NCBI RefSeq assembly: GCF_014303735.1 | Contig: NZ_CP060296.1 | Location: 4,423,501-4,487,500 of the forward strand | Reading direction: 5' to 3' | From: Variovorax sp. PAMC28562 | Lineage (GTDB): Bacteria > Pseudomonadota > Gammaproteobacteria > Burkholderiales > Burkholderiaceae_C | DNA length: 64,000 nucleotides | Part shown: piece after piece, positions 16,196 through 29,418 of the stretch | How positions within the stretch are numbered: position 1 is the stretch's first letter | Layout of the letters: each line of letters opens with the position of its first letter | Made by a program: the position numbers and the translations under genes | Notes under the pieces: generated by a model | Databases searched by the model: none | What the model saw: the letters and a program-made list of their open reading frames with translations, nothing else | Told to the model about the DNA's origin: nothing

Positions 16196-16378
16196 GGCGC
16201 CATCTCTCGGCTCTCCCCCGCATTCCCCGCAGTTTCTCCTCTGAAAAAAACAACAGCCCCCAATGAAAAAGTCTCTTTTCCGCTTGGAAACGCGTTTTTT
16301 CTCCTTTAGCATCCGCAGTGCCAGTGGAGACGCTGTTTTTCATTGGTGAATGTCCAACCAAAAAAAGGAAATCAAACC

Positions 16379-16798
16379 ATGGCAACTGCAAAAAAGGCTC
16401 CGGCCAAAAAGGCTCCCGCAAAGAAGGCTGTTCCAGCGAAGAAAGTAGCTGCTCCGGCAAAGAAGGCTGCTCCTGCGAAAAAGGCTGCGCCCGCAAAGAA
16501 GGCTGCTCCTGCGAAGGCTCCTGCAAAGAAGGCTGCTCCCGCCAAGAAGCGCACGCCCAACGCTGCCTTCATGAAGGCCCTGACCCCCAGCCCGGCACTC
16601 GCCGCTGTCGTCGGCTCTACGCCGCTGCCGCGTACCGCAGTCGTCAGCAAGCTGTGGGACTACATCAAGAAGAACAACCTTCAAGACAAGGCCAACAAGC
16701 GCAACATCAATGCCGACGCCAAGCTGAAGGAAATCTTCGGCAAGCCGCAAGTGTCGATGTTCGAACTGGCTGCGCTGATCGGCAAGCACGTCAAGTAA
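16379..16798 (+). CDS. Lysine-rich (histone H1-like) protein with SWIB/MDM2 domain
   Basis: The product is 139 residues from ATG 16379, with AAGGA upstream. Residues about 4-60 are a run of AKKA and APAKK units, like eukaryotic H1 tails and bacterial AlgP/Hc1-type proteins. Residues about 62-139 form a SWIB domain (LAAVVGSTPLPRTAVVSKLW, DYIKKNNLQD, LKEIFGKPQVSMFEL). The basic tail should bind DNA nonspecifically; SWIB is a protein-binding fold known from eukaryotic chromatin factors and from chlamydiae. A strong terminator follows. The function in Betaproteobacteria is not established. Confidence 0.9.
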   Translation: MATAKKAPAKKAPAKKAVPAKKVAAPAKKAAPAKKAAPAKKAAPAKAPAKKAAPAKKRTPNAAFMKALTPSPALAAVVGSTPLPRTAVVSKLWDYIKKNNLQDKANKRNINADAKLKEIFGKPQVSMFELAALIGKHVK

Positions 16799-16857: not shown

Positions 16858-18582
16858 TCAAGGTGAAGGCCGCGCTTGCGCTGCTTTGGTGATCGACGAC
16901 AACGTGCCGCGCGTCGAGATGATCTCCGCATCGAGCGGTATCTCAATCAGCGTGCCGGTGTCAGCTTCCAGCGCCCGCAGCAAGGCGCCTTCGAACTGCG
17001 ACGTGGCAGTCACTTTCTCAGCCGCATAGCCGTATGCCCTGGCAAGCGCGCAGAAGTCCGGGTTGCGCAGCGCGGTGCCGCTGACCTTGTTGGGGTACTC
17101 GCGCTCCTGATGCATGCGGATGGTCCCGAACATGCCGTTGTTCAGCAGCACGATGATGCTTTTGCCACCGTGCTGCGACGCCGTCGCCAGCTCCTGTCCG
17201 TTCATCAAAAAGTCACCGTCGCCAGCAATCGTGAAGGCGATGCGGCCGGTCGTCAGATTGGCCGCGATGCCGGCTGGCACGCCATAGCCCATGGCGCCGC
17301 TCGTCGGCGCCAACTGCGTCTTGTGGCCCTTCGCAAGCCCGTGGTAGCGAAAAAAGCGATGCACCCAGCTGGCGAAATTGCCGGCGCCGTTGGTGATGGC
17401 GGCATCGTGGGGCAGATGCTTTTGAAGCAACGCCACCACCTCGGCCATGTCGACCGCACCACGCGGCATGTCGGCCGGCAAGCCGGGCAACGGTTGCGGT
17501 ACGAGGTTGGCGAGGTAGTCCGTGTGGGCTGCCGATGTCCAGTCTTCCCAAGGCACTTCAGGCGGGGCACTGAGCACCTCCAGGCTGCGCGCCGCGGCGC
17601 TCATGCCTGCATTGATGGCCAGGTCGGCCTGGTACACGCGGTTGAGCTCTTCGGCGCTGGCGTGGATGTGCACCAGCGTCTGCTTCGCCTTGGGGGCTTC
17701 GAGCAGTGTGTAGCCACCGGTAGTCATCTCGCCCAGGCGTGGTCCGATCGCGATGATCAGGTCGCTGTCTTTGATGCGCGCGGCGAGCTTGGGATTGATG
17801 GCGATGCCGACGTCCCCCGCATACAGCGGATGGTGGTTGTCGAACGTATCCTGAAACCGAAACGCATTGCCGACCGGTAGCTTCCAGTTCTCTGCAAAGC
17901 GCTGCAGCGCCTGCGCGGATTGCGTCGTCCAGCCACTGCCGCCAGCGATCACGAACGGGCGCTGCGCCTTCATGAGCAGTTCACGCAGCGTGCGCAGCGA
18001 TCCCGGATCGCTCCACGGCTGCACCGCCTCGACGCGGCCGAGCGGGCGCGCGGCTGTGGTCGACCTCAGCATGTCTTCCGGCAGCACCAGCACGACCGGG
18101 CCGGGCCGGCCGTTCATCGCGGTCGAGAACGCGCGCGCGATGTATTCGGGAATGCGACTCGCATCGTCGATGCGCTCCACGCGCTTGGCGAAACCCTTGG
18201 TGCTCGGCCCGAAGAAGCTGCCGTAGTCGACCTCCTGAAAGGCTTCACGATCGCGAAAATCGCTGCCGACGTCGCCCACGAAAAGAACAAGTGGCGTCGA
18301 ATCCTGAAACGCGTTGTGCACGCCGATCGATGCGTTGGTGGCTCCCGGGCCGCGCGTCACGAAGCAGATGCCAGGCCGCCCGGTAAGCCGCCCATGCGCA
18401 TCCGCCATGAAGGCCGCGCCACCCTCCTGCCGGCTCACGATGAAGCGAATGCGGTCCTCGTACGCATGAAAGCCGTCGAGCACCGCGAGGAAACTTTCTC
18501 CCGGCACGCCGAATGCAATTTCGACGCCTTGCTCTATGAGGCACTCGACGATCAAGTGCCCCGCTGTCTGCTGCTTTTGCAT
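16858..18582 (-). CDS. Thiamine-diphosphate-dependent enzyme, acetolactate-synthase-like
   Basis: The product is 574 residues with the three-domain fold of the POX/AHAS family. The N-terminal pyrimidine domain has the catalytic Glu in SRQEGGAAFMADAHGR. The middle domain binds nucleotide or is structural. The C-terminal domain has the ThDP motif from GDGDFLMNGQEL to LLNNGMFG. A single catalytic gene with no small regulatory subunit nearby suggests a catabolic enzyme rather than biosynthetic IlvB. It is convergent with the SWIB gene and divergent from the TetR regulator. The substrate (pyruvate, a benzoylformate-like acid or other 2-oxo acid) is undetermined. Confidence 0.88.
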   Translation of the reverse strand: MQKQQTAGHLIVECLIEQGVEIAFGVPGESFLAVLDGFHAYEDRIRFIVSRQEGGAAFMADAHGRLTGRPGICFVTRGPGATNASIGVHNAFQDSTPLVLFVGDVGSDFRDREAFQEVDYGSFFGPSTKGFAKRVERIDDASRIPEYIARAFSTAMNGRPGPVVLVLPEDMLRSTTAARPLGRVEAVQPWSDPGSLRTLRELLMKAQRPFVIAGGSGWTTQSAQALQRFAENWKLPVGNAFRFQDTFDNHHPLYAGDVGIAINPKLAARIKDSDLIIAIGPRLGEMTTGGYTLLEAPKAKQTLVHIHASAEELNRVYQADLAINAGMSAAARSLEVLSAPPEVPWEDWTSAAHTDYLANLVPQPLPGLPADMPRGAVDMAEVVALLQKHLPHDAAITNGAGNFASWVHRFFRYHGLAKGHKTQLAPTSGAMGYGVPAGIAANLTTGRIAFTIAGDGDFLMNGQELATASQHGGKSIIVLLNNGMFGTIRMHQEREYPNKVSGTALRNPDFCALARAYGYAAEKVTATSQFEGALLRALEADTGTLIEIPLDAEIISTRGTLSSITKAAQARPSP

Positions 18583-18646
18583 GCCACGCCCGATTGAGTA
18601 GATGAAGAGATGTCGCCGATTATCGTCAGGGAAAAATCGGGTTGGC

Positions 18647-18657
18647 TTTAATTCACC
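18647..18657. promoter_or_regulatory. Candidate TetR operator half-site upstream of the tetR gene
   Basis: TTTAATTCACC lies 18 bases before the TetR start. Its exact reverse complement GGTGAATTAAA appears at 19378-19388, upstream of the transporter receptor gene. An 11-base match at both promoters points to a shared operator for the TetR protein between them. Confidence 0.55.
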
Positions 18658-18675
18658 AAACAGTTAAAAGAACGC

Positions 18676-19326
18676 ATGAAATCCGTTGCAGCCATCGCAC
18701 CCGAACCGCGCCTCAGAGACGCCGACAGATCGCAGCAAGCGATCCTCGACGCTGCGCGCGAAGAGTTCGCGCTGCTGGGACTGGCCGGTGCGCGCGTCGA
18801 CAGCATCGCGGAGCGTGCGGGCCTCAACAAGCGACTGATCTACTACTACTTCAGCAGCAAGGACGACCTGTTTCTGGCAGTGCTGGAGAGCGCCTACGCC
18901 AACATTCGCGAGGCCGAAAAAGAGTTGCATCTGCTCGACTTGCCGCCGGCCGAAGCCGTGCGCCGACTCATGGAATTCACCTGGAACTATTACCTCGAAC
19001 ATCCCGAGTTCATCACCCTTCTCAACAGCGCCAACCTGCACCAAGCGCGCCATCTGCAAAAGTCCAAGCGCGTGCGTGAAATGAACTCGCCGGTGATCCA
19101 GACGCTTGGCGACATTCTCGAACGTGGCCGCAAGGAAGGCGTGTTTCGCGGCGGTGTCGATCCAGTGCACCTCTACATCTCGATCGCCGGCCTCGCGTAC
19201 TTCTATCTTTCCAACAACTACACGCTGTCAGCCATCTTCGGGCGCGACCTCATGACGCGCAAAGCACGCAGCGAACGCCTCTCACACATGTGCGATGTGA
19301 TCCTAGGGTATGTCCTGAGGGACTGA
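18676..19326 (+). CDS. TetR/AcrR-family regulator of the downstream TTT cluster
   Basis: The product is 216 residues. The N-terminal helix-turn-helix spans about residues 20-66 (AILDAAREEFALLGLAG, then VDSIAERAGLNKRLIYYYF), and the C-terminal ligand domain is of the RutR-like type (FITLLNSANLHQARHL). It precedes an eight-gene plus-strand cluster. Matching A/T-rich sites before its own start and before the next gene suggest it represses both. Its inducer is likely the substrate or an intermediate of the cluster. Confidence 0.88.
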   Translation: MKSVAAIAPEPRLRDADRSQQAILDAAREEFALLGLAGARVDSIAERAGLNKRLIYYYFSSKDDLFLAVLESAYANIREAEKELHLLDLPPAEAVRRLMEFTWNYYLEHPEFITLLNSANLHQARHLQKSKRVREMNSPVIQTLGDILERGRKEGVFRGGVDPVHLYISIAGLAYFYLSNNYTLSAIFGRDLMTRKARSERLSHMCDVILGYVLRD

Positions 19327-19365
19327 CCGGCGTGGTCCGTTGACGCTCCGCTTCGCGATAGTCAG

Positions 19366-19388
19366 AATTCACCCGCTGGTGAATTAAA
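19366..19388. promoter_or_regulatory. Candidate TetR operator upstream of the TTT receptor gene
   Basis: AATTCACC (19366-19373) and GGTGAATT (19378-19385) form a perfect inverted repeat around CGCT. The right arm extended to GGTGAATTAAA matches the element before the tetR gene. It lies 23 bases before the tctC-like ATG, a position where binding would block transcription. Confidence 0.6.
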
Positions 19389-19410
19389 ACCATAACTGGA
19401 GACCTTCGTG

Positions 19411-20427
19411 ATGCATGCCGATTCCGTTCGCAACCTGGCTCGCCGGGTGTTTGTCGTCGCCGTTCTGTCTGCCGCTGCGTCCAGCGCGCTGGCCCAGTGG
19501 AAGCCCTCTCGCCCCATCAACTTGATCGTGCCGTGGGCGGCAGGCGGCTCGACCGATCAGGTCACGCGCGTCACTGCAGGCGAGATCGAAAAAGCACTCG
19601 GCCAAACTGTCGTCATCATCAATCAGCCGGGTGCATCCGGCGCGATCGGCACCAAGAGCGCGCTCGACGCTGCAAAGGATGGCTACACGTGGACGGCCGG
19701 TGCCGCACAAGACCTGGGCACCTACGAAACGCTCGGCTCGCTGCAAACGAAGATGAGCGACTGGCACATCTTCCTGACGGTCGCCAACATCCAGGTGATC
19801 GGCGTGAATCCGGCAACGCCGTACAAGACAGCCAAGGACCTGATCGACGCCATGAAGGCTCAGCCCGGCAAGATCACGGTGGCGACGGCAGGTGTCACCT
19901 CCGCAGGCCACAACGCGATGGACTTCATCGCCGGGGCTACCGGCGTCAAGTACCGCGAAGTGCCTTACGACGGCGGCAACCCTGCCGTCGTCGCCACCGT
20001 GTCGGGCGAGGCAGAAGTCACCACGCAACTGGCCGTCGAGCAGGCGGACATGATCCGTGGCAAACGCCTGCGTCCGCTGGCCACCGTCAGCGACAAGCCG
20101 CTCGACCTCGAAGGCTTCGGCGTCATCCCGCCGCTGTCGCAGACCATTCCCGGCTTTACCGCGCCGGCCAACTACTTCGGCATTTTCATTCCCAAAGGCG
20201 TGCCGGATGAAGTCGTGAAAACGGTGCAGAAGATCTGGGAAGAAAACATCCCGAAGAGCGAGGGGCTGAAGAAGTACGCGAGCAGCCGCGGCGCGCTGTT
20301 CCTGCCGACCTCAGGCGAGGCTGCGCAGAAGGCGGTGATGCCGGCTGTGCAGGCGAATGCGTGGATGCTGTTCGGGGCGGGCAAGGCCAAGGTGTCGCCC
20401 GACACCGTGGGCATTCCGAAGCCTTGA
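19411..20427 (+). CDS. TctC/Bug-family substrate-binding protein of a TTT transporter
   Basis: The product is 338 residues from ATG 19411 (a GTG one codon upstream is also possible), with GGAG before it. A signal peptide ends near SSALAQ. The mature protein shows the Bug features: INLIVPWAAGGSTDQVTR, VIINQPGASGAIGT, and ITVATAGVTSAGHNAMDFI. It is followed directly by the small and large membrane subunits, so this is a complete tripartite tricarboxylate transporter. These systems carry carboxylates and related anions, so the imported compound probably carries an acid group. Confidence 0.9.
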   Translation: MHADSVRNLARRVFVVAVLSAAASSALAQWKPSRPINLIVPWAAGGSTDQVTRVTAGEIEKALGQTVVIINQPGASGAIGTKSALDAAKDGYTWTAGAAQDLGTYETLGSLQTKMSDWHIFLTVANIQVIGVNPATPYKTAKDLIDAMKAQPGKITVATAGVTSAGHNAMDFIAGATGVKYREVPYDGGNPAVVATVSGEAEVTTQLAVEQADMIRGKRLRPLATVSDKPLDLEGFGVIPPLSQTIPGFTAPANYFGIFIPKGVPDEVVKTVQKIWEENIPKSEGLKKYASSRGALFLPTSGEAAQKAVMPAVQANAWMLFGAGKAKVSPDTVGIPKP

Positions 20428-20436
20428 TTCGTGTCC

Positions 20437-21030
20437 ATGACGCCTCCCGCTACATCGACCTCTGCACAGCCAAAGCAGTTGTCCGAGCTCCCGACGTCGC
20501 CGGTTGAAGAAGCCCGAATCGTCAGCCCGCGCTCCGACCTGATCGCTGCCTTCGCGTGGATGATCTTCGGCGCGGCGGTGCTGATCGGCTCGCTCCGCAT
20601 GGACCGGCTCGAGAAGCAGGACATCAATCCGTATACCGCGCCTGGACTGTTGCCGGGCTTGCTCGGCATCGTGACGGTGTTGCTGGGGTTTCTGCTGGCG
20701 CTGCGCAGTTGGCGTCGACTCTCTGCGCATTCCGGCGAAGCCGCAGTGGCGACACATGCCACCAGCAGCGTCGAGAAGAAACGCATCGTGCTGGTGGTGG
20801 GTTTGTGCGTCGTTTTCGCGGTCGGGCTCGTGGGGCACGGACTGCCCTTCTGGGCGGCAGCCGCGCTGTTCGTGACCATCGCGATCCTGAGCCTGCAGCA
20901 CGTGCAACGCAAGGCAGCAGGCGAGTCGCTCACGCTGCCGATCTTCTGCAAGACGCTGGCAATCGGCCTCGGCGCCGGCATCGTCATCACGCTCGTGTTC
21001 CAGGAACTGTTCCTGGTGCACCTACCTTAA
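20437..21030 (+). CDS. TctB-like small membrane subunit of a TTT transporter
   Basis: The product is 197 residues from ATG 20437; the frame also offers GTG 20431. After a polar N-terminal tail it has four hydrophobic segments: AAFAWMIFGAAVLIGSL, GLLPGLLGIVTVLLGFLLAL, IVLVVGLCVVFAVGLVGHGL and GLGAGIVITLVFQELFLV. The YTAPGLLPGLLG motif is typical of TctB. It lies between the receptor and the large permease gene. Confidence 0.88.
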   Translation: MTPPATSTSAQPKQLSELPTSPVEEARIVSPRSDLIAAFAWMIFGAAVLIGSLRMDRLEKQDINPYTAPGLLPGLLGIVTVLLGFLLALRSWRRLSAHSGEAAVATHATSSVEKKRIVLVVGLCVVFAVGLVGHGLPFWAAAALFVTIAILSLQHVQRKAAGESLTLPIFCKTLAIGLGAGIVITLVFQELFLVHLP

Positions 21031-21058
21031 GCAACTCTCTGAGCTCAGCAAGACCACC

Positions 21059-22597
21059 ATGTTCGAAGGCCTCGCGCTCCTCGGTCACGCCTACCTCGGC
21101 TTCCTCAACATCACGTCGATCACCTTCGGGCTCGGCGGTGCGTTGATCGGCATCATCGTCGGCTGCCTGCCAGGCTTGTCGGCAACGCTGTGCATCGCGT
21201 TGCTGACGACGCTCACCATCAAGCTGCCGGCGAACGACGCGATCCTGATCCTGATCTGCTCGTATGTCGGCACCCTTTATGGCGGCTCTCGCACAGCCAT
21301 CCTGCTGAATATTCCGGGCACCGCTGCAAACGCGGCATCGTGTGCCGATGGCTATGCGCTGGCGCGCCGCGGAGAGGCCGGTCGAGCCATCGGCATTGCC
21401 ACTTCGGGCGCCTTCATGGGGACGCTCTTCGGCGTTCTTTGCCTTGCAGCCTTTACGCCGTTGCTGGCCGAAGTCGCGTTGTCGTTCGGCGCCTACGAGT
21501 TCTTCTGGCTGGCCCTCTTTGGTGTCGCAATGTCGGGCAGCATCGTCGGCGACGATCCGCTCAAGGGCTGGCTGATGGGTGCGCTCGGCTTGTTCGTCGC
21601 GCAGATCGGGCAAGAAGGCTTGTACGCGTACAACCGATTCACCTTCGACTGGGACCAGCTCTCAGGCGGCATCTCGCTGATACCCGCGCTGGTGGGCGCA
21701 TTCGGTTTTGCCGAAGTGTTGACCACGCTGGCCGACCCGGTCGAGAAGAAGATGGTCGAGTTGCGTGATTCGGTATTGCCGCGCTTTCGCGAAGTGGTTC
21801 AGTACTGGCCCACCGTGTTGCGCTCCGGCGTGATCGGCGTGCTCACCGGCTTGATGCCAGGCGTCGGAGAAGACTCCGGTGCGTGGATGTCGTACGCCGC
21901 GGCCAAGGCGGCAAGCAAAGAAAAGGAGCTCTTCGGCAAGGGCTCGATCGACGGCTTGATGGCCGCCGAGACCGGCGATATGGCGTCGATTCCGGGCCAC
22001 ATCATCCCGGCACTGGCGCTCGGCATTCCAGGTTCGGCACCGTCCGCCGTGCTCATGGCCGCGATGATCATCCACGGCATCCAGCCCGGTCCGATGATGA
22101 TGATCTCGCACCCGCAGTTCGTCTACGACGTGGTCGCGATGACCTCGCTCGCCACCATCAGCATCCTGATCTTCGGCCTGTTTTTGGTGAAGCCGCTGCT
22201 GCTGGTGCTGCGCATCAAGCGAACCGTCCTGATGCCGATCATCTTTCTGCTGTGCACTGTCGGCGCCTTCGCCAGCGCGTCGCGGTTGTTCGACATTTAC
22301 TGCATGCTGGTCATCGGCATAGGCGCCTTCTTTCTGCGGCGCCGGGGCTACCAGATGGCGCCCTTCGTTCTTGGTCTGGTGCTCGGTCCGCTGCTCGACA
22401 AGAGCTTGCGCCGCGGGCTGGTTTTGTCCGATGGCGACCTGTCGCCCTTCTTCACACGGCCGATCTGCATCGGTTTTGCGACGGTCACGATCTTCACGAT
22501 CCTGTTGTATGTGCCGGCCTTCAAGGCGCTGGTACAGAGCATCACCGGTGGCTTCAGCCGCACGCTGAAGTCGCTCGTTTCAAGGCAACCCTCATGA
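21059..22597 (+). CDS. TctA-like large membrane subunit of a TTT transporter
   Basis: The product is 512 residues, the usual TctA size, with about eleven or twelve membrane segments. Diagnostic motifs are GGALIGIIVGCLPGLSATLC near residue 23, YGGSRTAILLNIPGTA near residue 75, and in the second half MPGVGEDSGAWMSYA and IPALALGIPGSAPSAVLMAA. It is the channel part of the sodium- or proton-coupled carboxylate importer. Its stop overlaps the next gene's ATG (ATGA). Confidence 0.93.
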   Translation: MFEGLALLGHAYLGFLNITSITFGLGGALIGIIVGCLPGLSATLCIALLTTLTIKLPANDAILILICSYVGTLYGGSRTAILLNIPGTAANAASCADGYALARRGEAGRAIGIATSGAFMGTLFGVLCLAAFTPLLAEVALSFGAYEFFWLALFGVAMSGSIVGDDPLKGWLMGALGLFVAQIGQEGLYAYNRFTFDWDQLSGGISLIPALVGAFGFAEVLTTLADPVEKKMVELRDSVLPRFREVVQYWPTVLRSGVIGVLTGLMPGVGEDSGAWMSYAAAKAASKEKELFGKGSIDGLMAAETGDMASIPGHIIPALALGIPGSAPSAVLMAAMIIHGIQPGPMMMISHPQFVYDVVAMTSLATISILIFGLFLVKPLLLVLRIKRTVLMPIIFLLCTVGAFASASRLFDIYCMLVIGIGAFFLRRRGYQMAPFVLGLVLGPLLDKSLRRGLVLSDGDLSPFFTRPICIGFATVTIFTILLYVPAFKALVQSITGGFSRTLKSLVSRQPS

Positions 22598-23424
22598 AGA
22601 TCGCTCTGTGCAACGAAGTGCTCGCCGGCATGTCGCTGGAGAAGCAATGCGAGGTCGCCGCAGCACTCGGCTACGACGGGCTCGAAGTCGCGCCTTTCAC
22701 ACTCAGCGACACGCCAGAAAAGATCACATCGGGCGAAGCGGCACGCATCCGCGCCACCATCGAATCGTTCGGTCTCATCGTCACCGGTCTTCACTGGCTG
22801 CTGGTCAAGCCCGAAGGCTTGTCGTTGACCGATCCCGATGCCGCACTGCGCTCACGCACCCTCGAAGTGATGTCGCGCCTGACCGGCTTGTGCGCCGAAC
22901 TCGGCGGCATGGTGCTGGTGCACGGCTCGCCCAAGCAGCGGCAGATTCCTGACGGAGAGAGCCACGCCGTCGCCTTGGCGCGTCTGCAGGACGGCCTGGC
23001 GCGCGTCGCGGAATCGGCAGCCGCCAACGGTGTCATCTACTGCATCGAGCCGTTGTCGCCGCACGAAACATCGATGCTCAATACGGTGGCCCAGGCGGCA
23101 GAGGTGGTGCGCACCGTCGACCACCCCAACCTGCGCACGATGATCGATTGCAGCGCCGCCGGCCTGAGTGAAAGCGAGAGCGTGCCCGACCTGATCGACC
23201 GCTGGTTGCCGACCGGGCTCATCGGCCACATTCAGGTGAACGACCCCAACCGCCGCGGACCGGGTCAAGGCGCGATGCAGTTCGCGCCGATCTTCGCGGC
23301 ATTGAAGCGCCATCGCTACGCCGGCGCGATCGGCGTCGAACCCTTCGACTACGTGCCCGACGGCCCAGGCGTGGCCGCGTTCTCGGCCGGCTACCTGAAG
23401 GGCTTGCGCGAAGCGCTGGCCTGA
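22594..23424 (+). CDS. TIM-barrel sugar phosphate isomerase/epimerase family protein
   Basis: The product is 276 residues and belongs to the xylose-isomerase-like TIM barrel group (Hyi, IolE and tagatose epimerase relatives). Metal or acid ligands are suggested by CIEPLSPHET, HIQVNDPNRRGPGQG and IGVEPFDY. Its ATG overlaps the tctA stop by four bases, so the two are translationally coupled. In the cluster it likely isomerises or dehydrates a sugar-acid-like intermediate. The exact reaction is not known. Confidence 0.85.
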   Translation: MKIALCNEVLAGMSLEKQCEVAAALGYDGLEVAPFTLSDTPEKITSGEAARIRATIESFGLIVTGLHWLLVKPEGLSLTDPDAALRSRTLEVMSRLTGLCAELGGMVLVHGSPKQRQIPDGESHAVALARLQDGLARVAESAAANGVIYCIEPLSPHETSMLNTVAQAAEVVRTVDHPNLRTMIDCSAAGLSESESVPDLIDRWLPTGLIGHIQVNDPNRRGPGQGAMQFAPIFAALKRHRYAGAIGVEPFDYVPDGPGVAAFSAGYLKGLREALA

Positions 23425-23430
23425 CCTTTT

Positions 23431-23455
23431 CCCGCATCCTTTCCCCGCATCCTTT
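23431..23455. repeat. Short tandem repeat between two cluster genes
   Basis: CCCGCATCCTTT occurs at 23431-23442 and again at 23444-23455 (period 13) in the 54-base gap between the isomerase and the enolase-like gene. It probably reflects a small duplication of the spacer; no function is evident. Confidence 0.5.
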
Positions 23456-23478
23456 TCGCAGGTCTTCTAGCGGTCGCC

Positions 23479-24909
23479 ATGTCCATTCCGTTTCGCATCC
23501 TCGACATCCAGCTCTTCGAACGCGGCGTGAAGATGCGCATGCCGTTCCGCTTCGGCGTCGTCACGCTGACAGCTTGCCCGCAGGCCTTCGTGCGCGTTCG
23601 CATCCGCACAGACGACGGCGTTGAAGCCGAAGGCGCTTCAGCCGAGTTACTCGCGCCCAAGTGGTTCGACAAGAACCTCGCACTCAGCAACGACGACAAC
23701 TTCGACCAGCTGCGCACGTCGCTTCGTTTGGCGAAGGCCGCCTATCTCGCCGATGGCGAATCGCGCCCTGCTTTCGCGCACTTCACAGCGAACTACCAGC
23801 CGCAGATCGACGCAGCGGCGGTGCAGCAACTCAACCCGCTCATCGCGTGCTTCGGTCCGGCTTTGATCGACCGCGCGTTGATCGATGCGCTGTGTCGCGC
23901 CGAAGATATTTCGTTCTATGAAGCGGTGCAACGCAACCTTCCCGGCATCGATGCGACGCTCACGCCAGACCTCGACGCGTTCGACTTCGCCAGCTTCCTC
24001 GGGTCACTAGCGCCAGCGAACCGCATCGCGCTGCGCCACACCGTCGGGCTGGTCGACACCATCACGGCAGCCGACGTACAGCAACGCGTGGGCGACGGCT
24101 TGCCCGAGACGCTGGAAGAAGTCGTCGCAGCCACCGGCTGCCGCTACTTCAAGCTTAAGGTCGCCGGCAACGCAGAGCAAGATCTGGCACGGCTGACGCG
24201 CATTGCCGCGGTCATCGACCGCGTGCCCGATTACGTCGTCACGCTCGACGGCAACGAGCAGTTTGCCGATGCCGAAGCCGCCGCGCGCTTCTGGCAACAA
24301 GTGCAGGCAACGCCCGCACTACATCGCCTCGCAGCGGCAACCCTCTACATCGAACAACCATTGCCACGCGCAACCGCATTGCAAAGCGATGTGCGCGCGC
24401 TCGCTGCGATGCGCCCGGTGCTGATCGATGAGTCCGACGGCACGCTCGATGCGTTTCCGCAGGCGCTGACCTGCCGCTACACGGGCGTGTCGAGCAAGGA
24501 TTGCAAGGGCATCTATCGCTCGTTGCTCAACGCTGCTCGTTGCCGGCAACTCAACCTGCAAGCCGCCTCCGAAGGTCGGCCGGCCGCTTATTTCATGTCG
24601 GCCGAAGACCTGACAACGCAAGCCGGCCTCGCCGTGCAGCAAGACCTCGCCCTGGTCAACCTGATCGGGCTCACGCACGTCGAGCGCAACGGCCATCACT
24701 ACGTCGACGGCTTCAGCGGCCAGGGCGGCAGTGCAGCAGAAGCGCAGGGTTTCTTGCGGGCGCAACCCGGACTCTACGAAGCATGCGGCGACAAGGTGCG
24801 GCTTTCTGTGCACGGTGGAATGCTCGACATCACCTCGCTTGCTGCGCCTGGCTTTGCCGCCAGCACGCAACCCGACTGGGCCACGCTCCAGCCGCTCGCC
24901 GGCAGTTGA
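23479..24909 (+). CDS. Enolase-superfamily (mandelate racemase/MLE-like) protein
   Basis: The product is 476 residues, longer than the usual 370-400. The N-terminal capping domain (MPFRFGVVTLTACPQAFVRV) is followed by a barrel with the KxK-type base in CRYFKLKVAG, metal ligands in VVTLDGNEQF, LYIEQPLP and VLIDESDG, and a second lysine in SSKDCKGIYRS. This is the muconate-lactonizing-enzyme layout of two lysines and three acidic ligands. Such enzymes abstract a proton next to a carboxylate, for racemisation, dehydration or lactonisation. The middle and C-terminal insertions are unusual. The substrate is presumably an acid imported by the TTT system. Confidence 0.8.
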   Translation: MSIPFRILDIQLFERGVKMRMPFRFGVVTLTACPQAFVRVRIRTDDGVEAEGASAELLAPKWFDKNLALSNDDNFDQLRTSLRLAKAAYLADGESRPAFAHFTANYQPQIDAAAVQQLNPLIACFGPALIDRALIDALCRAEDISFYEAVQRNLPGIDATLTPDLDAFDFASFLGSLAPANRIALRHTVGLVDTITAADVQQRVGDGLPETLEEVVAATGCRYFKLKVAGNAEQDLARLTRIAAVIDRVPDYVVTLDGNEQFADAEAAARFWQQVQATPALHRLAAATLYIEQPLPRATALQSDVRALAAMRPVLIDESDGTLDAFPQALTCRYTGVSSKDCKGIYRSLLNAARCRQLNLQAASEGRPAAYFMSAEDLTTQAGLAVQQDLALVNLIGLTHVERNGHHYVDGFSGQGGSAAEAQGFLRAQPGLYEACGDKVRLSVHGGMLDITSLAAPGFAASTQPDWATLQPLAGS

Positions 24910-24957
24910 GCCCACACAAGACCTCCTCAAGAACATCGCAAAACAAGGACCTCTGAT

Positions 24958-26121
24958 ATGGCGACCCAACGACTCGGAATCATCATGCACGGCGTCACCG
25001 GCCGCATGGGCATGAACCAGCATCTGATCCGCTCCATCTGCGCCATTCGCGCGCAAGGCGGCGTGACGCTTTCGAACGGCGACAAGGTCATGCCCGACCC
25101 GATCCTCATCGGCCGCAATGCCGACAAGATCGAGGCGCTGGCCAACGCGCACGGCATCGCACGCTGGGGCACCGACCTCGACCTCGCGCTGCAGAACAAG
25201 GACGACACGATCTTCTTCGACGCAGGCACGACGCAGATGCGCCCCACCCTGCTGGCCAAGGCGATCCGCGCCGGCAAGCACGTGTACTGCGAGAAGCCGA
25301 TCGCGACCAATTTGAACGAAGCAGTCGAGGTCGCCCGTCTCGCGCAAAGCTCGGGCTTGAAGCATGGCGCGGTGCAGGACAAGCTCTTTTTGCCCGGCCT
25401 GCGCAAGCTCGATATGCTGCGTCGCGCCGGCTTCTTCGGCCGCATGCTGAGCGTGCGCCTCGAGTTCGGCTACTGGGTGTTCGAAGGCGATCTGCAACCG
25501 ATTCAGCGTCCGAGCTGGAACTACCGCAAGGAAGACGGCGGCGGCATGATCCTGGACATGATGTGCCACTGGCGCTATGTGCTCGACAACCTGTTCGGCG
25601 AGGTGAAGTCGGTCAGCTGCCTCGGCACCACGCACATTCCCAAGCGCTGGGACGAGGCCGGCGAACCCTACGAAGCCACCGCGGACGATGCGGCCTACGC
25701 CACCTGCCAACTGGTCGGACACAACGGCGAGCCGGTCATCGCGCAGATCAACATGAGCTGGGTCACGCGCGTGCGCCGCGACGACCTTGTCACCTTCCAT
25801 GTCGATGGCACCGATGGCTCCGCGGTGGCCGGCCTGTCGAGCTGCCGTGCGCAGTCGCGCGTCGCTACACCGCGCCCGGTATGGAACCCGGACGAAAAGC
25901 AGACGATGAACTTCTTCGACCAATGGCAGGAGATTCCGGACTCGCAGGTCTACGACAACGGCTTCAAGATCCAGTGGGAACACTTCATCCGCCATGTCGT
26001 CGAAAACGCGCCTTACAAGTGGACGTTGCCCGAAGGCGTCAAGGGCGTGCAGTTGGTCGAAGCCGCGCTCGAAAGCTGGGGCGAGCGCCGTTGGGTGGAC
26101 GTGCCTGCGCTGAGCATCTGA
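24958..26121 (+). CDS. Gfo/Idh/MocA-family oxidoreductase
   Basis: The product is 387 residues. The N-terminal Rossmann domain starts RLGIIMHGVTGRMGMNQHL and contains the family EKP motif (VYCEKPIATNLNEA, catalytic Lys). The C-terminal domain has GGGMILDMMCHWRYVLDNLF with the usual Asp/His pair. These enzymes oxidise or reduce sugar or cyclitol hydroxyls with NAD(P). In this cluster it likely forms or uses a keto intermediate. It is spaced 48 bases after the enolase-like gene and 13 before the DUF993 gene. Confidence 0.9.
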   Translation: MATQRLGIIMHGVTGRMGMNQHLIRSICAIRAQGGVTLSNGDKVMPDPILIGRNADKIEALANAHGIARWGTDLDLALQNKDDTIFFDAGTTQMRPTLLAKAIRAGKHVYCEKPIATNLNEAVEVARLAQSSGLKHGAVQDKLFLPGLRKLDMLRRAGFFGRMLSVRLEFGYWVFEGDLQPIQRPSWNYRKEDGGGMILDMMCHWRYVLDNLFGEVKSVSCLGTTHIPKRWDEAGEPYEATADDAAYATCQLVGHNGEPVIAQINMSWVTRVRRDDLVTFHVDGTDGSAVAGLSSCRAQSRVATPRPVWNPDEKQTMNFFDQWQEIPDSQVYDNGFKIQWEHFIRHVVENAPYKWTLPEGVKGVQLVEAALESWGERRWVDVPALSI

Positions 26122-26134
26122 CGAGGTCGACAGC

Positions 26135-27334
26135 ATGGCGTTGACCCTCACCCTCCCGACCGCCGACGGCGCGCTGTCAGCCTATTCGTTGCGCGGCGCT
26201 ATGCCCGCCAAGCCGGCGGCCGGCGTCGTTTTCAACCGCATCGCCTATTCGGCAGCACACGTCGTCGCCGATCCGGTGGCCGCCATCGATCCGTGGTTGC
26301 AATGCGCGGTCGACTGGGACGCGACCATTGGTTATCGCCGGCATCTGTGGTCGCTTGGTCTTGGCGTCGCGGAAGCGATGGATACAGCGCAACGTGGCAT
26401 GGGCCTCGACTGGCCGACCTCGCTGGAGCTCATCCGCCGCTCGCTCGATGCGGCGAAGGACTTCTCTTCGAAAGACGGCAGCGCGCTCGTCGCGTCAGGC
26501 TGCGGCACCGACCATCTCGACATCGACAGCGTCAAGAACGTCGACGATGTGATTCGCGGCTACGAAGAACAGATGGCCGCCATCGAAGCGCTCGGCGGCA
26601 AGCTGATCGTCATGGCAAGCCGCGCACTGGCCCGCGTCGCGAAGAGCCCGGCCGATTACGAGCGCGTGTACGACCGCGTGCTGTCGCAGGCGAAGCAGCC
26701 GGTCGTGCTGCATTGGCTCGGCCCGATGTTCGACCCCGCGCTGGCCGGTTACTGGGGATCGGCCAATGTCGACAAGGCCATGGACACCGCGCTCGGCATC
26801 ATCGCCGCGCACCCGGACAAGGTCGACGGCATCAAGATTTCGCTGCTCGACAAGGACAAGGAAATCGCAATGCGGCGACGGCTTCCGCCGGGCGTGCGCA
26901 TGTACACCGGCGACGACTTCAACTATGCCGAGCTGATTGCCGGCGATGGCTTCGGCAGCGACCCGACACACGGTCAGAGCGACGCGCTGCTTGGCATCTT
27001 CGACGCGATTGCGCCAGCGGCCAGCGCGGCGCTCGGTGAGCTGGCTCTGGGCAACGTCGACAAGTTCCACGCCATCCTCGGCCCGACCGTGCCGCTGTCG
27101 CGCCACATCTTCGCGGCGCCCACGCGCTTCTACAAAACCGGCGTCGTGTTCATGGCGTGGCTCAACGGCCACCAGTCGCACTTCACCATGGTCGGAGGCC
27201 AGCAAAGCACGCGGTCGTTGCAGCATCTGGCCGAGTTGTTCCGCCTTGCCGATGCGGCCGATCTGCTGGAGCATCCGGCGTTGGCCGTGCACCGCATGAA
27301 GACCTTGCTCGCAATGCACGGCGTCGAAGCCTGA
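26135..27334 (+). CDS. DUF993 family, dihydrodipicolinate-synthase-like protein
   Basis: The product is 399 residues and matches the DUF993 group, a branch of the DHDPS/aldolase class I barrel. The segment VDGIKISLLDKDKE places a lysine (Lys234) where DHDPS-type enzymes carry their Schiff-base lysine. Other conserved-looking parts are SGCGTDHLDIDS, VVLHWLGPMFDPALAGYWGS and YTGDDFNY. An aldolase or hydratase step that cleaves a keto-acid is a reasonable guess. It lies between the dehydrogenase and a second isomerase gene, tightly spaced on both sides. Confidence 0.82.
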   Translation: MALTLTLPTADGALSAYSLRGAMPAKPAAGVVFNRIAYSAAHVVADPVAAIDPWLQCAVDWDATIGYRRHLWSLGLGVAEAMDTAQRGMGLDWPTSLELIRRSLDAAKDFSSKDGSALVASGCGTDHLDIDSVKNVDDVIRGYEEQMAAIEALGGKLIVMASRALARVAKSPADYERVYDRVLSQAKQPVVLHWLGPMFDPALAGYWGSANVDKAMDTALGIIAAHPDKVDGIKISLLDKDKEIAMRRRLPPGVRMYTGDDFNYAELIAGDGFGSDPTHGQSDALLGIFDAIAPAASAALGELALGNVDKFHAILGPTVPLSRHIFAAPTRFYKTGVVFMAWLNGHQSHFTMVGGQQSTRSLQHLAELFRLADAADLLEHPALAVHRMKTLLAMHGVEA

Positions 27335-27342
27335 GGCGACGT

Positions 27343-28221
27343 ATGCGCGACTTCTCGCAGAACCACGACGGGCTGTCGATCAACACCGCGACGGTGCGCA
27401 AACAACGCGGCGTCGAAGTCCCGCTCGACCGCATCGTCGACCAATGCGCCGAGCGCGGCATCAGGGCGATCAGCCCGTGGCGCGATCAGGTCGCAGCGGT
27501 GGGCATCGACAAGCTCGCCAAGCAACTCAAGGCGCATGACATCGGCCTTTCGGGCTACTGCCGCGGTGGCTTCTTTCCGGCACCCGATTCGGCTGGGCTC
27601 AAAGCCGCACTCGACGACAATCGCCGCGCGATCGACGAAGCAAAGACGCTCGCCGCACCGTGTCTCGTGCTCGTGGTGGGCGCGCTGCCCGGCGCGCTCG
27701 ATGGCAAGGCGGCTTACAAGGACATCGGCCGCGCGCGCAACGAGGTGCGCGACGGCATCGCGGCATCTCTGGAGTACGCACGCGAAGTCGGCATGCCGCT
27801 CGCCATCGAGCCGCTGCATCCGATGCAAGCCGCGGACCGCGCCTGCATCAACACGCTGGAACACGCATTGGACCTGTGCGACGCGCTAGACCCCGGCAAG
27901 ACCGGCGCACTCGGCGTGGCGCTCGACATCTATCACGTGTGGTGGGACCCGAAGCTGCAGCAGCAGATCGAACGCGCGGGCAAATCGCGCTTGCTGGCGT
28001 ACCACGTTTGTGACTGGTTGACGCCGACACGCGACCTGTTGTCCGACCGCGGAATGATGGGTGATGGGGTGGTGGAGCTGAAGAAGATTCGGGGCTGGAT
28101 GGAGGCTGCGGGCTTCGAGGGATTCAGCGAAGTCGAGATTTTTTCCAATCTCGACTGGTGGCAACGTACCGGAGAAGAGACGCTCGACGTTTGCATTGCG
28201 CGGCACAAGACTGTGGTGTGA
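27343..28221 (+). CDS. Second TIM-barrel sugar phosphate isomerase/epimerase family protein
   Basis: The product is 292 residues from ATG 27343, which has GAGG seven bases before it and lies 8 bases after the DUF993 stop. It starts LSINTATVRKQRGVEVPLDR and carries LAIEPLHPM, VALDIYHVWWDP, AYHVCDWLTPTRDLL and FSEVEIFS, the acidic and histidine positions that bind metal in this barrel family. It is only distantly similar to the isomerase at 22594, so the two probably act on different intermediates. It is the last gene of the cluster. Confidence 0.87.
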   Translation: MRDFSQNHDGLSINTATVRKQRGVEVPLDRIVDQCAERGIRAISPWRDQVAAVGIDKLAKQLKAHDIGLSGYCRGGFFPAPDSAGLKAALDDNRRAIDEAKTLAAPCLVLVVGALPGALDGKAAYKDIGRARNEVRDGIAASLEYAREVGMPLAIEPLHPMQAADRACINTLEHALDLCDALDPGKTGALGVALDIYHVWWDPKLQQQIERAGKSRLLAYHVCDWLTPTRDLLSDRGMMGDGVVELKKIRGWMEAAGFEGFSEVEIFSNLDWWQRTGEETLDVCIARHKTVV

Positions 28222-28323
28222 ACACGAAGGCGGGGGACATGAGCGGAAGGGGGTCACCCGGCGCCATCGGCCACCCCACAAAACGCCGCTCCAGCAAACA
28301 AGCGTTGTGCTGCAATCACCAGC

Positions 28324-29418
28324 ATGTCAGACCCGACCCTCGATGAGCTGCGCCGCTACGCCGTAGCCCGCACCCTCTTCAAACCGACGACATTGCCGCG
28401 TGCGATCCAGCGTCTCGGGTTCGTGCAAGCCGACCCGATTCGCGCACCCGCAAGAGCGCAAGACCTCACGTTGCGTCATCGCGTGAAGGACTACCGCGCC
28501 GGTGACCTCGAAGCGCGTTACCCAAGACTTGCGATCGAAGAAGACAGCCTCGTCAACTACGGCTTTCTGCCGCGCGAACATTTGGCGTTGATGCACCCGC
28601 GTGAGCCCAAGTTGGCTTGGGATGCGGAGACTCGGCGCAAGGCTGCGGACGTGCTGGCCTTCGTGCGCGAGCGCGGGCAAGTGCATCCGCGTGATGTCGA
28701 TGCGCACTTCTCGCACGGCCGCATGACCAACTATTGGGGTGGATCGAGCAACGCGAGCACACACCTGCTCGACGGCATGCACTACCGCGGCATGTTGCGC
28801 GTAGCTCGGCGCGACAGCGGCACGCGCGTCTACGAAGCGGTCGACCATGCACCACCGATCGATGACAGCCCGACCGGTCGCGCATTGCGTGCTGCGGCGC
28901 TGCTCGAACTCATCGTGCGCAAGTACGCCCCGCTGCCAGCCGCGAGCCTCACCTACCTCGTGCGCTTGCTCAATTACGGTGCGCCACATCTGAGCACGCA
29001 CACCCAGGCCGCGCTGAGTGAAGCACGCGAGGTGCTCGCCAGCAACCGCATCGACGGCACGATCTGGTACTGGCCGGTCAACGAGAACCCAGCTTCCAAG
29101 CGTCACGCGCCTGACGATGCGGTTCGGCTGCTGGCGCCGTTCGATCCGGTGGTGTGGGACCGTCGCCGCTTCGAGTTGCTCTGGGGCTGGACGTACAAGT
29201 TCGAGGCTTACATGCCAGCGCCGAAGCGGCAGTTCGGCCACTACGCATTGCCATTGCTGTGGCACGACCGGGTGATCGGCTGGGCGAACGTGACAGCCAC
29301 GGCAGGACGGTTGAAGCCGAGCTTCGGCTATATCGACAAGAAGCCGAACGGCGCTGCGTTTCGTGCGGCCCTCGACGACGAGTTTCAACGCATGACGGCC
29401 TTCATGGCGCCGCGCTGA
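28324..29418 (+). CDS. Winged-helix DNA glycosylase of the AlkX/YcaQ type
   Basis: The product is 364 residues and belongs to the HTH_42 family, whose members open or repair DNA with alkylated bases or crosslinks. The segment LGFVQADPIRAPARAQDL near residue 31 contains a Q-x-D catalytic motif (QAD), the version of the YcaQ/AlkX branch rather than the Q-x-Q of AlkZ. Later parts typical of the family are DSLVNYGFLPREH, LLAPFDPVVWDRRR and FELLWGWTYKFEAYMP. It stands alone after the catabolic cluster. Confidence 0.85.
   Translation: MSDPTLDELRRYAVARTLFKPTTLPRAIQRLGFVQADPIRAPARAQDLTLRHRVKDYRAGDLEARYPRLAIEEDSLVNYGFLPREHLALMHPREPKLAWDAETRRKAADVLAFVRERGQVHPRDVDAHFSHGRMTNYWGGSSNASTHLLDGMHYRGMLRVARRDSGTRVYEAVDHAPPIDDSPTGRALRAAALLELIVRKYAPLPAASLTYLVRLLNYGAPHLSTHTQAALSEAREVLASNRIDGTIWYWPVNENPASKRHAPDDAVRLLAPFDPVVWDRRRFELLWGWTYKFEAYMPAPKRQFGHYALPLLWHDRVIGWANVTATAGRLKPSFGYIDKKPNGAAFRAALDDEFQRMTAFMAPR

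Follow-up and report, generated by a model that had tools for sequence, protein, structure and literature searches.

What does the nine-gene cluster at positions 18,676 to 28,221 of the window do, and is it a pathway in itself? The window is a stretch of 64,000 nucleotides of the Variovorax sp. PAMC28562 genome (contig NZ_CP060296.1, positions 4,423,501 to 4,487,500), which is a single contig of 4.69 Mb. The cluster consists of a gene for a TetR-family regulator (tetR) and an eight-gene operon in the order tctC-tctB-tctA-ISO1-ENO-GFO-DUF993-ISO2 (Table 1). TctA, TctB and TctC are the subunits of a tripartite tricarboxylate transporter (TTT), ISO1 and ISO2 are two distinct TIM-barrel isomerases, ENO is an enolase-superfamily protein, GFO is a Gfo/Idh/MocA dehydrogenase, and DUF993 is a class I aldolase-like protein. 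On balance, the operon is probably part of a TetR-repressed catabolic regulon, by which a polyhydroxylated carboxylate would be imported, oxidised, isomerised or dehydrated, and cleaved by an aldolase.

All nine proteins exceed the Pfam cut-offs, including the three TTT subunits encoded together, and all nine genes are on the (+) strand, as a preliminary description had proposed. The intergenic gaps from tctC onward are 3, 28, −4, 54, 48, 13 and 8 bp. The tight spacing claimed in that description is therefore confirmed, but the overlaps are reduced to a single true one, between tctA and ISO1. The cut-off of an NCBIfam model is not reached by GFO, ISO1 or ISO2. Among named proteins, those closest to DUF993 and to ENO belong to Variovorax.

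To compare loci, genes were labelled by tblastn according to their best match to a hand-made reference set; labels such as TauA, UgpC or ribATP may be loose. DUF993 is present in 33 of the 36 other genomes of the genus, and the three genomes in which it is missed are 73–88% complete. The architecture of the main DUF993 locus was compared in 12 fetched genomes of these 33. One locus (L102) is identical in arrangement to the operon of the window. Six loci contain an ABC transporter with ENO, GFO, DUF993 and ISO2, in three GFO-DUF993 precedes epimerase and DHDPS-like genes, which are followed by TTT-ISO1-ENO-ISO2, one (L071) is a minimal TctC-GFO-DUF993-ISO2 version, and one (L106) is a version with a tartronate-semialdehyde-reductase-like gene. 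Two Xenophilus loci keep the gene order of the window with one extra TctC-like gene, and a plasmid of Paroceanicella profunda carries the same nine genes in the order TctC-TctB-TctA-TetR-ISO1-ENO-GFO-DUF993-ISO2. The order is TetR-ABC-ENO-GFO-DUF993-ISO2 in the six Bradyrhizobium-like loci fetched and ABC-ENO-GFO-DUF993-ISO2-TetR in Chelatococcus. Because the gene set is found again in further genera and in another class, its clustering goes beyond chance, and the neighbourhood of DUF993, Gfo/Idh/MocA and TctABC genes, which the preliminary description had suggested searching for, is conserved in genera such as Paroceanicella and Xenophilus. In the six Bradyrhizobium-like loci and in six of the 12 Variovorax loci, an ABC transporter occupies the position of TTT in the operon. 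When five proteins of these transporters (three receptors, one permease and one ATPase) were tested by Pfam, all three receptors were identified as NMT1/THI5-like (PF09084), that is, of the NMT1/SsuA type.

At least 573 contig stretches contain a member of the ENO family, detected as a relative with nine ENO queries among at least 595 pattern stretches. The best 80 loci were analysed; some of them are clipped by contig ends, and two (L154 and L184) belong to one assembly as judged from the contig name. These 80 loci contain ISO1 in 62 cases, TctC in 49, TctA in 46, a second DHDPS-like, aldolase-like gene (DHDPSx) in 42, TctB in 41, DUF993 in 39, GFO in 38, TetR and an NAD-epimerase gene (Epim) in 34 each, TauB in 32 and ISO2 in 31. 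Same-strand neighbours within 250 bp are most often ISO1-ENO (51), followed by GFO-DUF993 (31), DUF993-ISO2 (20), Epim-DHDPSx (18) and ENO-GFO (17). Because 32 of the 41 ENO loci without DUF993 are in genomes that carry DUF993 elsewhere, the genomes of 71 of the 80 loci (70 of 79 assemblies) contain DUF993. By comparison, DUF993 is present in 36 of 398 sampled Pseudomonadota genomes, with ENO in 15 and both in 14 (Fisher p = 2.4e-15, kinship ignored; both surveys used the same draw, as judged from the listed genome identifiers). Only one genome of this sample (G198) contains ENO without DUF993. ENO is nearly nested in DUF993, but not the reverse.

The palindrome AATTCACC-N4-GGTGAATT between tetR and tctC is the sole perfect copy in the genome, and the next best matches are six places with three mismatches. 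The reversed pattern is found at one place in the same genome. With up to two mismatches allowed, 22 palindrome sites are detected in 17 of the 80 ENO loci, and five control patterns of equal composition give no site in these loci. Counted from where a labelled pathway gene starts, all but one of the 22 sites lie between 60 bp inside the gene and 350 bp 5' of it, the genes being TctC (7), Epim (7), GFO (3), TauA (2), TetR (1) or DHDPSx (1). Epim is preceded by the palindrome in five Caenimonas and Ramlibacter loci (L125, L136, L139, L140 and L148). In Ramlibacter cellulosilyticus (L225) and Caenimonas sedimenti (L226), the palindrome is found at a TetR-TctC-GFO-DUF993-ISO2 locus and again at a separate TTT-ISO1-ENO locus of the same genome (L144 and L125 respectively). 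Since both loci carry it, the two groups of genes are tied to one type of regulator. TetR presumably binds to this palindrome and thereby represses the operon. The palindrome offers a direct handle on the regulation and the inducer.

Table 1. Features of the cluster and its surroundings (positions in the window)
Feature	Position	Strand	Remarks
TetR-family regulator (tetR)	18676..19326	+	PF00440, PF17938; TetR_N/TetR_C_29
TctC, TTT periplasmic receptor	19408..20427	+	PF03401, E 1.3e-28
TctB, TTT small membrane subunit	20431..21030	+	PF07331, E 2.8e-9
TctA, TTT large membrane subunit	21059..22597	+	PF01970, E 2.2e-127
ISO1, AP_endonuc_2 TIM barrel	22594..23424	+	PF01261; closest to ketose 3-epimerases; start ATG at 22594 overlaps tctA stop by 4 bp (ATGA)
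ENO, MR/MLE-type enolase-superfamily protein	23479..24909	+	MR_MLE_C; MR/MLE fold
GFO, Gfo/Idh/MocA dehydrogenase	24958..26121	+	PF22725, PF02894, PF01408
DUF993, class I aldolase-like TIM barrel	26135..27334	+	PF06187
ISO2, AP_endonuc_2 TIM barrel, SMc04130 type	27343..28221	+	PF01261; start codon at 27343
Perfect 20-bp palindrome AATTCACC-N4-GGTGAATT	19366..19385		between tetR and tctC; proposed TetR operator
Degenerate operator copy (AATTCACC half and weak second half)	18650..18669		just 5' of tetR; 4 mismatches, counted by eye
Promoter-like site	19340..19368	+	−10 overlaps palindrome
Thiamine-pyrophosphate (TPP) enzyme	16858-18582	-	NCBIfam PRK08199 subfamily, 782 bits, above cut-off; divergent from tetR
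AlkZ-like DNA glycosylase	28324-29418	+	PF06224; directly 3' of operon
Short protein	16343-16798	+	N-terminal half repetitive, alanine/lysine-rich

DUF993 assumes the DHDPS-type TIM-barrel fold of the DHDPS/NAL class I aldolase superfamily and is homologous to PDB 4dnh (SMc04132). Lys234 is invariant in 34 aligned rows and is located on strand 230-236 of the model. It is a candidate for the Schiff-base lysine on strand 6, an equivalence suggested by the motif and the order of the strands rather than by a residue alignment. The pyruvate-carboxylate motif of the DHDPS/NAL superfamily is GTTGE-like. DUF993 does not have this motif but has AEAMDTAQRGMGLDW at what we take to be its place. The reading of DUF993 as an aldolase is based on the fold and the lysine.

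ENO assumes the MR/MLE enolase fold in a structure model with a pLDDT (predicted local distance difference test) of 93.0. Its Lys225, Lys227, Asp257, Glu292, Asp317 and Lys340 residues are invariant in 46 rows and are located at or next to the strand ends of the model. The pattern of the MLE-like subgroup consists of KxK, three acidic metal ligands and a lysine on strand 6, and ENO conforms to it. The structures nearest to ENO are tied across many functions. GFO is related to PDB 3oqb (E 1.3e-189), contains the Gfo/Idh/MocA domains, and has Lys113, Asp200 and His204, which are invariant in 18 rows and are presumably the catalytic Lys/Asp/His residues of this family. ISO1 matches D-psicose 3-epimerase in the PDB (E 5.9e-19), and its Glu152, Asp185, His212 and Glu249 residues are invariant in 19 rows. 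ISO2 matches PDB 3ju2 and 3qc0 (SMc04130; E 2e-101 and 3e-101), with Glu156, Asp195, His221 and Glu265 invariant in 17 rows. Three specific assignments were rejected. GFO gives 61.5 bits with its best NCBIfam match, the inositol 2-dehydrogenase IolG (cut-off 355), and 47.9 bits with levoglucosan dehydrogenase (cut-off 650), and ISO1 and ISO2 give 92.2 and 20.4 bits with the 5-keto-L-gluconate epimerase IolO (cut-off 300).

In the pathway that we propose, the substrate would be a polyhydroxylated carboxylate, such as a sugar acid, a uronate derivative or a cyclitol-type acid, and would be imported by TctABC. GFO would oxidise a hydroxyl group to a ketone with NAD(P), the metal-dependent TIM barrels ISO1 and ISO2 would catalyse epimerisation or a carbonyl shift, and ENO would abstract the proton beside the carboxylate, with subsequent elimination of water or opening of a lactone. 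Lys234 of DUF993 would then form a Schiff base with the ketone, and retro-aldol cleavage would yield C3-type fragments, which may feed glycerate-level metabolism. Such C3 products are suggested because glycerate kinase and tartronate-semialdehyde-reductase-like genes adjoin several other DUF993 clusters. The minimal core would be GFO-DUF993-ISO2, and the entry module would be TTT, or an NMT1/SsuA-type ABC transporter, with ISO1 and ENO, to which the relatives add the NAD-epimerase and the second DHDPS-like enzyme. The general class of pathway suggested in the preliminary description agrees with the protein families and with the residues that are conserved, but its TTT is not a fixed component. 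A bolder version, which we hold only tentatively, is that the regulon is widespread and undescribed and serves an acidic sugar or cyclitol derivative that is abundant, and that DUF993, because its usual motif for pyruvate binding is replaced, is a new kind of Schiff-base aldolase whose ketone substrate is not a 2-oxo acid of the pyruvate type.

Several results weigh against the proposed regulon and pathway. The palindrome is not detected at up to two mismatches in 63 of the 80 ENO loci. Nine of these loci are in genomes without DUF993, namely six metagenome or similar partial genomes and three isolates (Rhodoplanes serenus, Rhodoplanes tepidamans and Siccirubricoccus deserti). Because these isolates contain ENO without DUF993, another aldolase or route must exist. 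Conversely, 22 of the 36 DUF993 genomes in the 398-genome sample lack ENO, and three of the genomes surveyed (G025, G026 and G265) carry GFO-DUF993 and no ENO. DUF993 matches PF06187 only and not PF00701, and its comparison with one DHDPS by hhalign gives no support with the shallow alignments used. The comparison with the DHDPSx family likewise gives no support with shallow alignments. These comparisons are uninformative, because the same test fails to detect the relationship between DHDPSx and DHDPS, although the DHDPSx family matches PF00701. Finally, many other DUF993 clusters contain genes for CoA-transferase, enoyl-CoA hydratase and acyl-CoA dehydrogenase, which the proposed scheme does not need; their presence suggests that more than one upstream route feeds into DUF993.

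The two Rhodoplanes loci (L175 and L186) encode ENO, TTT, ISO1 and ISO2, with GFO as well in L186, and DUF993 is not found in their genomes. They are natural examples in which DUF993 is replaced or bypassed. In L034 (S. meliloti pSymA), L109 and L110, DUF993-ISO2 is located among genes for acyl-CoA dehydrogenase, SDR, ETF and glycerate kinase, with CoA-transferase and enoyl-CoA hydratase as well in L034 and L109. These clusters represent a different, probably CoA-dependent route with the same DUF993-ISO2 pair.

The relatives add Epim and DHDPSx, often behind the same operator. In the host genome, this pair is located at C1:1828097-1830205, far from the operon, and the stretch read 5' of it contains no palindrome, which is a further point against the proposed explanation. 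The cluster had been described as complete. This is not supported, because the pair that the relatives carry behind the same operator lies elsewhere in the host genome. Of 27 genomes tested, 13 contain Epim and these 13 are also the ones with DHDPSx, whereas ISO1 is present in 7 of the 27, one match being weak. These genes suggest an explanation that we consider unlikely, in which the substrate is a uronic acid, or the methyl ether of one, and the route resembles the oxidative uronate pathway without being homologous to it throughout. The epimerase-like protein would oxidise the uronate, ENO would open the lactone or eliminate water or methanol, DHDPSx would process the keto-deoxy acid, and GFO-DUF993-ISO2 would act on a second portion or on another epimer. 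The oxidative hexuronate pathway consists of uronate dehydrogenase, galactarolactone cycloisomerase and keto-deoxy-glucarate dehydratase, and the extended regulon of the relatives resembles it in combining an NAD-epimerase-family protein, an MR/MLE enolase and a DHDPS-family enzyme. Epim-DHDPSx-TTT-ISO1-ENO is contiguous in many loci, in G198 an ABC transporter adjoins ISO1-ENO-Epim-GNAT-DHDPSx and DUF993 is not found, galactarolactone and 3,6-anhydro-galactonate cycloisomerases are among the structures near ENO, and a MetE-like gene in 12 of the 80 loci hints at a methylated substrate. However, none of the Epim and DHDPSx proteins tested has a match among the NCBIfam models, and neither the operon nor the relatives' proteins match a model of that route. 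Relative to that route, the window is short of two enzyme types near the operon and has GFO, DUF993 and two TIM-barrel isomerases in addition. The host pair sits apart without a palindrome, the tie among the structures nearest to ENO favours no single function, and the roles of Epim, GNAT and MetE-like proteins are guesses.

It is rather improbable that the entry module with ISO1-ENO and the GFO-DUF993-ISO2 core are two separate pathways, which share a regulator because their substrates co-occur. In favour of this reading, each module can stand alone: L071 lacks ISO1-ENO and its genome lacks ENO, the core of L225 and L226 is apart from the ENO locus, and ENO occurs with no DUF993 in G198, both Rhodoplanes and Siccirubricoccus. 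ENO genomes nearly always contain DUF993, however, and ENO and GFO are close neighbours in 17 cases. The least probable explanation, that GFO-DUF993-ISO2 oxidises a cyclitol to an inosose, dehydrates it in an IolE-like manner by ISO2 and cleaves the ring by DUF993 to a deoxy acid, agrees with the best NCBIfam matches of GFO (inositol 2-dehydrogenase) and of ISO1 and ISO2 (IolO) and with the CoA-transferase and enoyl-CoA hydratase of many DUF993 clusters, which suit a deoxy acid, but those matches are far under the cut-offs, receptors of the TTT and NMT1/SsuA types point to an anion, and no IolB, IolC or IolD match is found among the operon proteins tested by Pfam and NCBIfam.

Compared with known systems, the proposed regulon shares a Gfo/Idh dehydrogenase and AP_endonuc_2 enzymes with the myo-inositol (iol) pathway, but the operon reaches the cut-off of no iol model and has the class I aldolase-like DUF993 instead. 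It shares a Gfo/Idh dehydrogenase with TIM-barrel enzymes with the levoglucosan and 3-keto-sugar routes, from which it is separated by the low levoglucosan dehydrogenase score of GFO. Transporter-fed sugar-acid catabolism is a known general type, but the combination of genes and DUF993 are not described in the open-access papers searched. No described pathway with this combination was found there, in agreement with the preliminary description, and no paper naming DUF993 or SMc04130 was found. The PDB codes 4dnh, 3ju2/3qc0 and 3oqb retrieved only an unrelated mathematics paper. These structures, which are direct homologues of DUF993, ISO2 and GFO respectively, are deposited without a stated function. 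The regulon would join these three kinds of uncharacterised crystal structure and the ENO family in one testable pathway. One table of a paper on S. meliloti PhaR lists SMc04132 as an uncharacterised protein, SMc04133 as a putative oxidoreductase and SMc04135 as a putative amino acid or peptide ABC binding protein (PMC12542648). Another paper (PMC4996985) deals with arylmalonate decarboxylases whose gene neighbours include TTT and MR/MLE genes, and these are a different enzyme.

Further recurrent genes near ENO, of which one member each was tested by Pfam, encode a double-GNAT protein (19 of the 80 loci), the MetE-like protein mentioned above and a second Gfo/Idh protein (8 loci). The MetE-like protein is a single-domain PF01717 protein (L121:7783-8796, − strand), of which the copies in the 11 other loci are very similar. 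A second enolase-superfamily gene with an ABC transporter is located near ENO in six loci (L075, L116, L120, L121, L124 and L163), and the copy in L075 is muconate-cycloisomerase-like, below the cut-off.

The gene for the TPP enzyme adjoins tetR in 13 fetched loci and in Xenophilus, and no gene is labelled as such in the Bradyrhizobium-like loci. A weaker copy of the palindrome, with two or three mismatches, is located between the two genes in 12 of the 13 loci. The TPP gene might be a member of the regulon, but it is kept out of the proposed pathway despite these palindrome-like sites. In the region 18400-28500, one promoter-like site is found against 1.1 expected by chance, so that only its position is suggestive. 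The AlkZ-like gene is retained 3' of the operon in several Variovorax loci, and the short protein encoded at 16343-16798 has a histone H1-like appearance.

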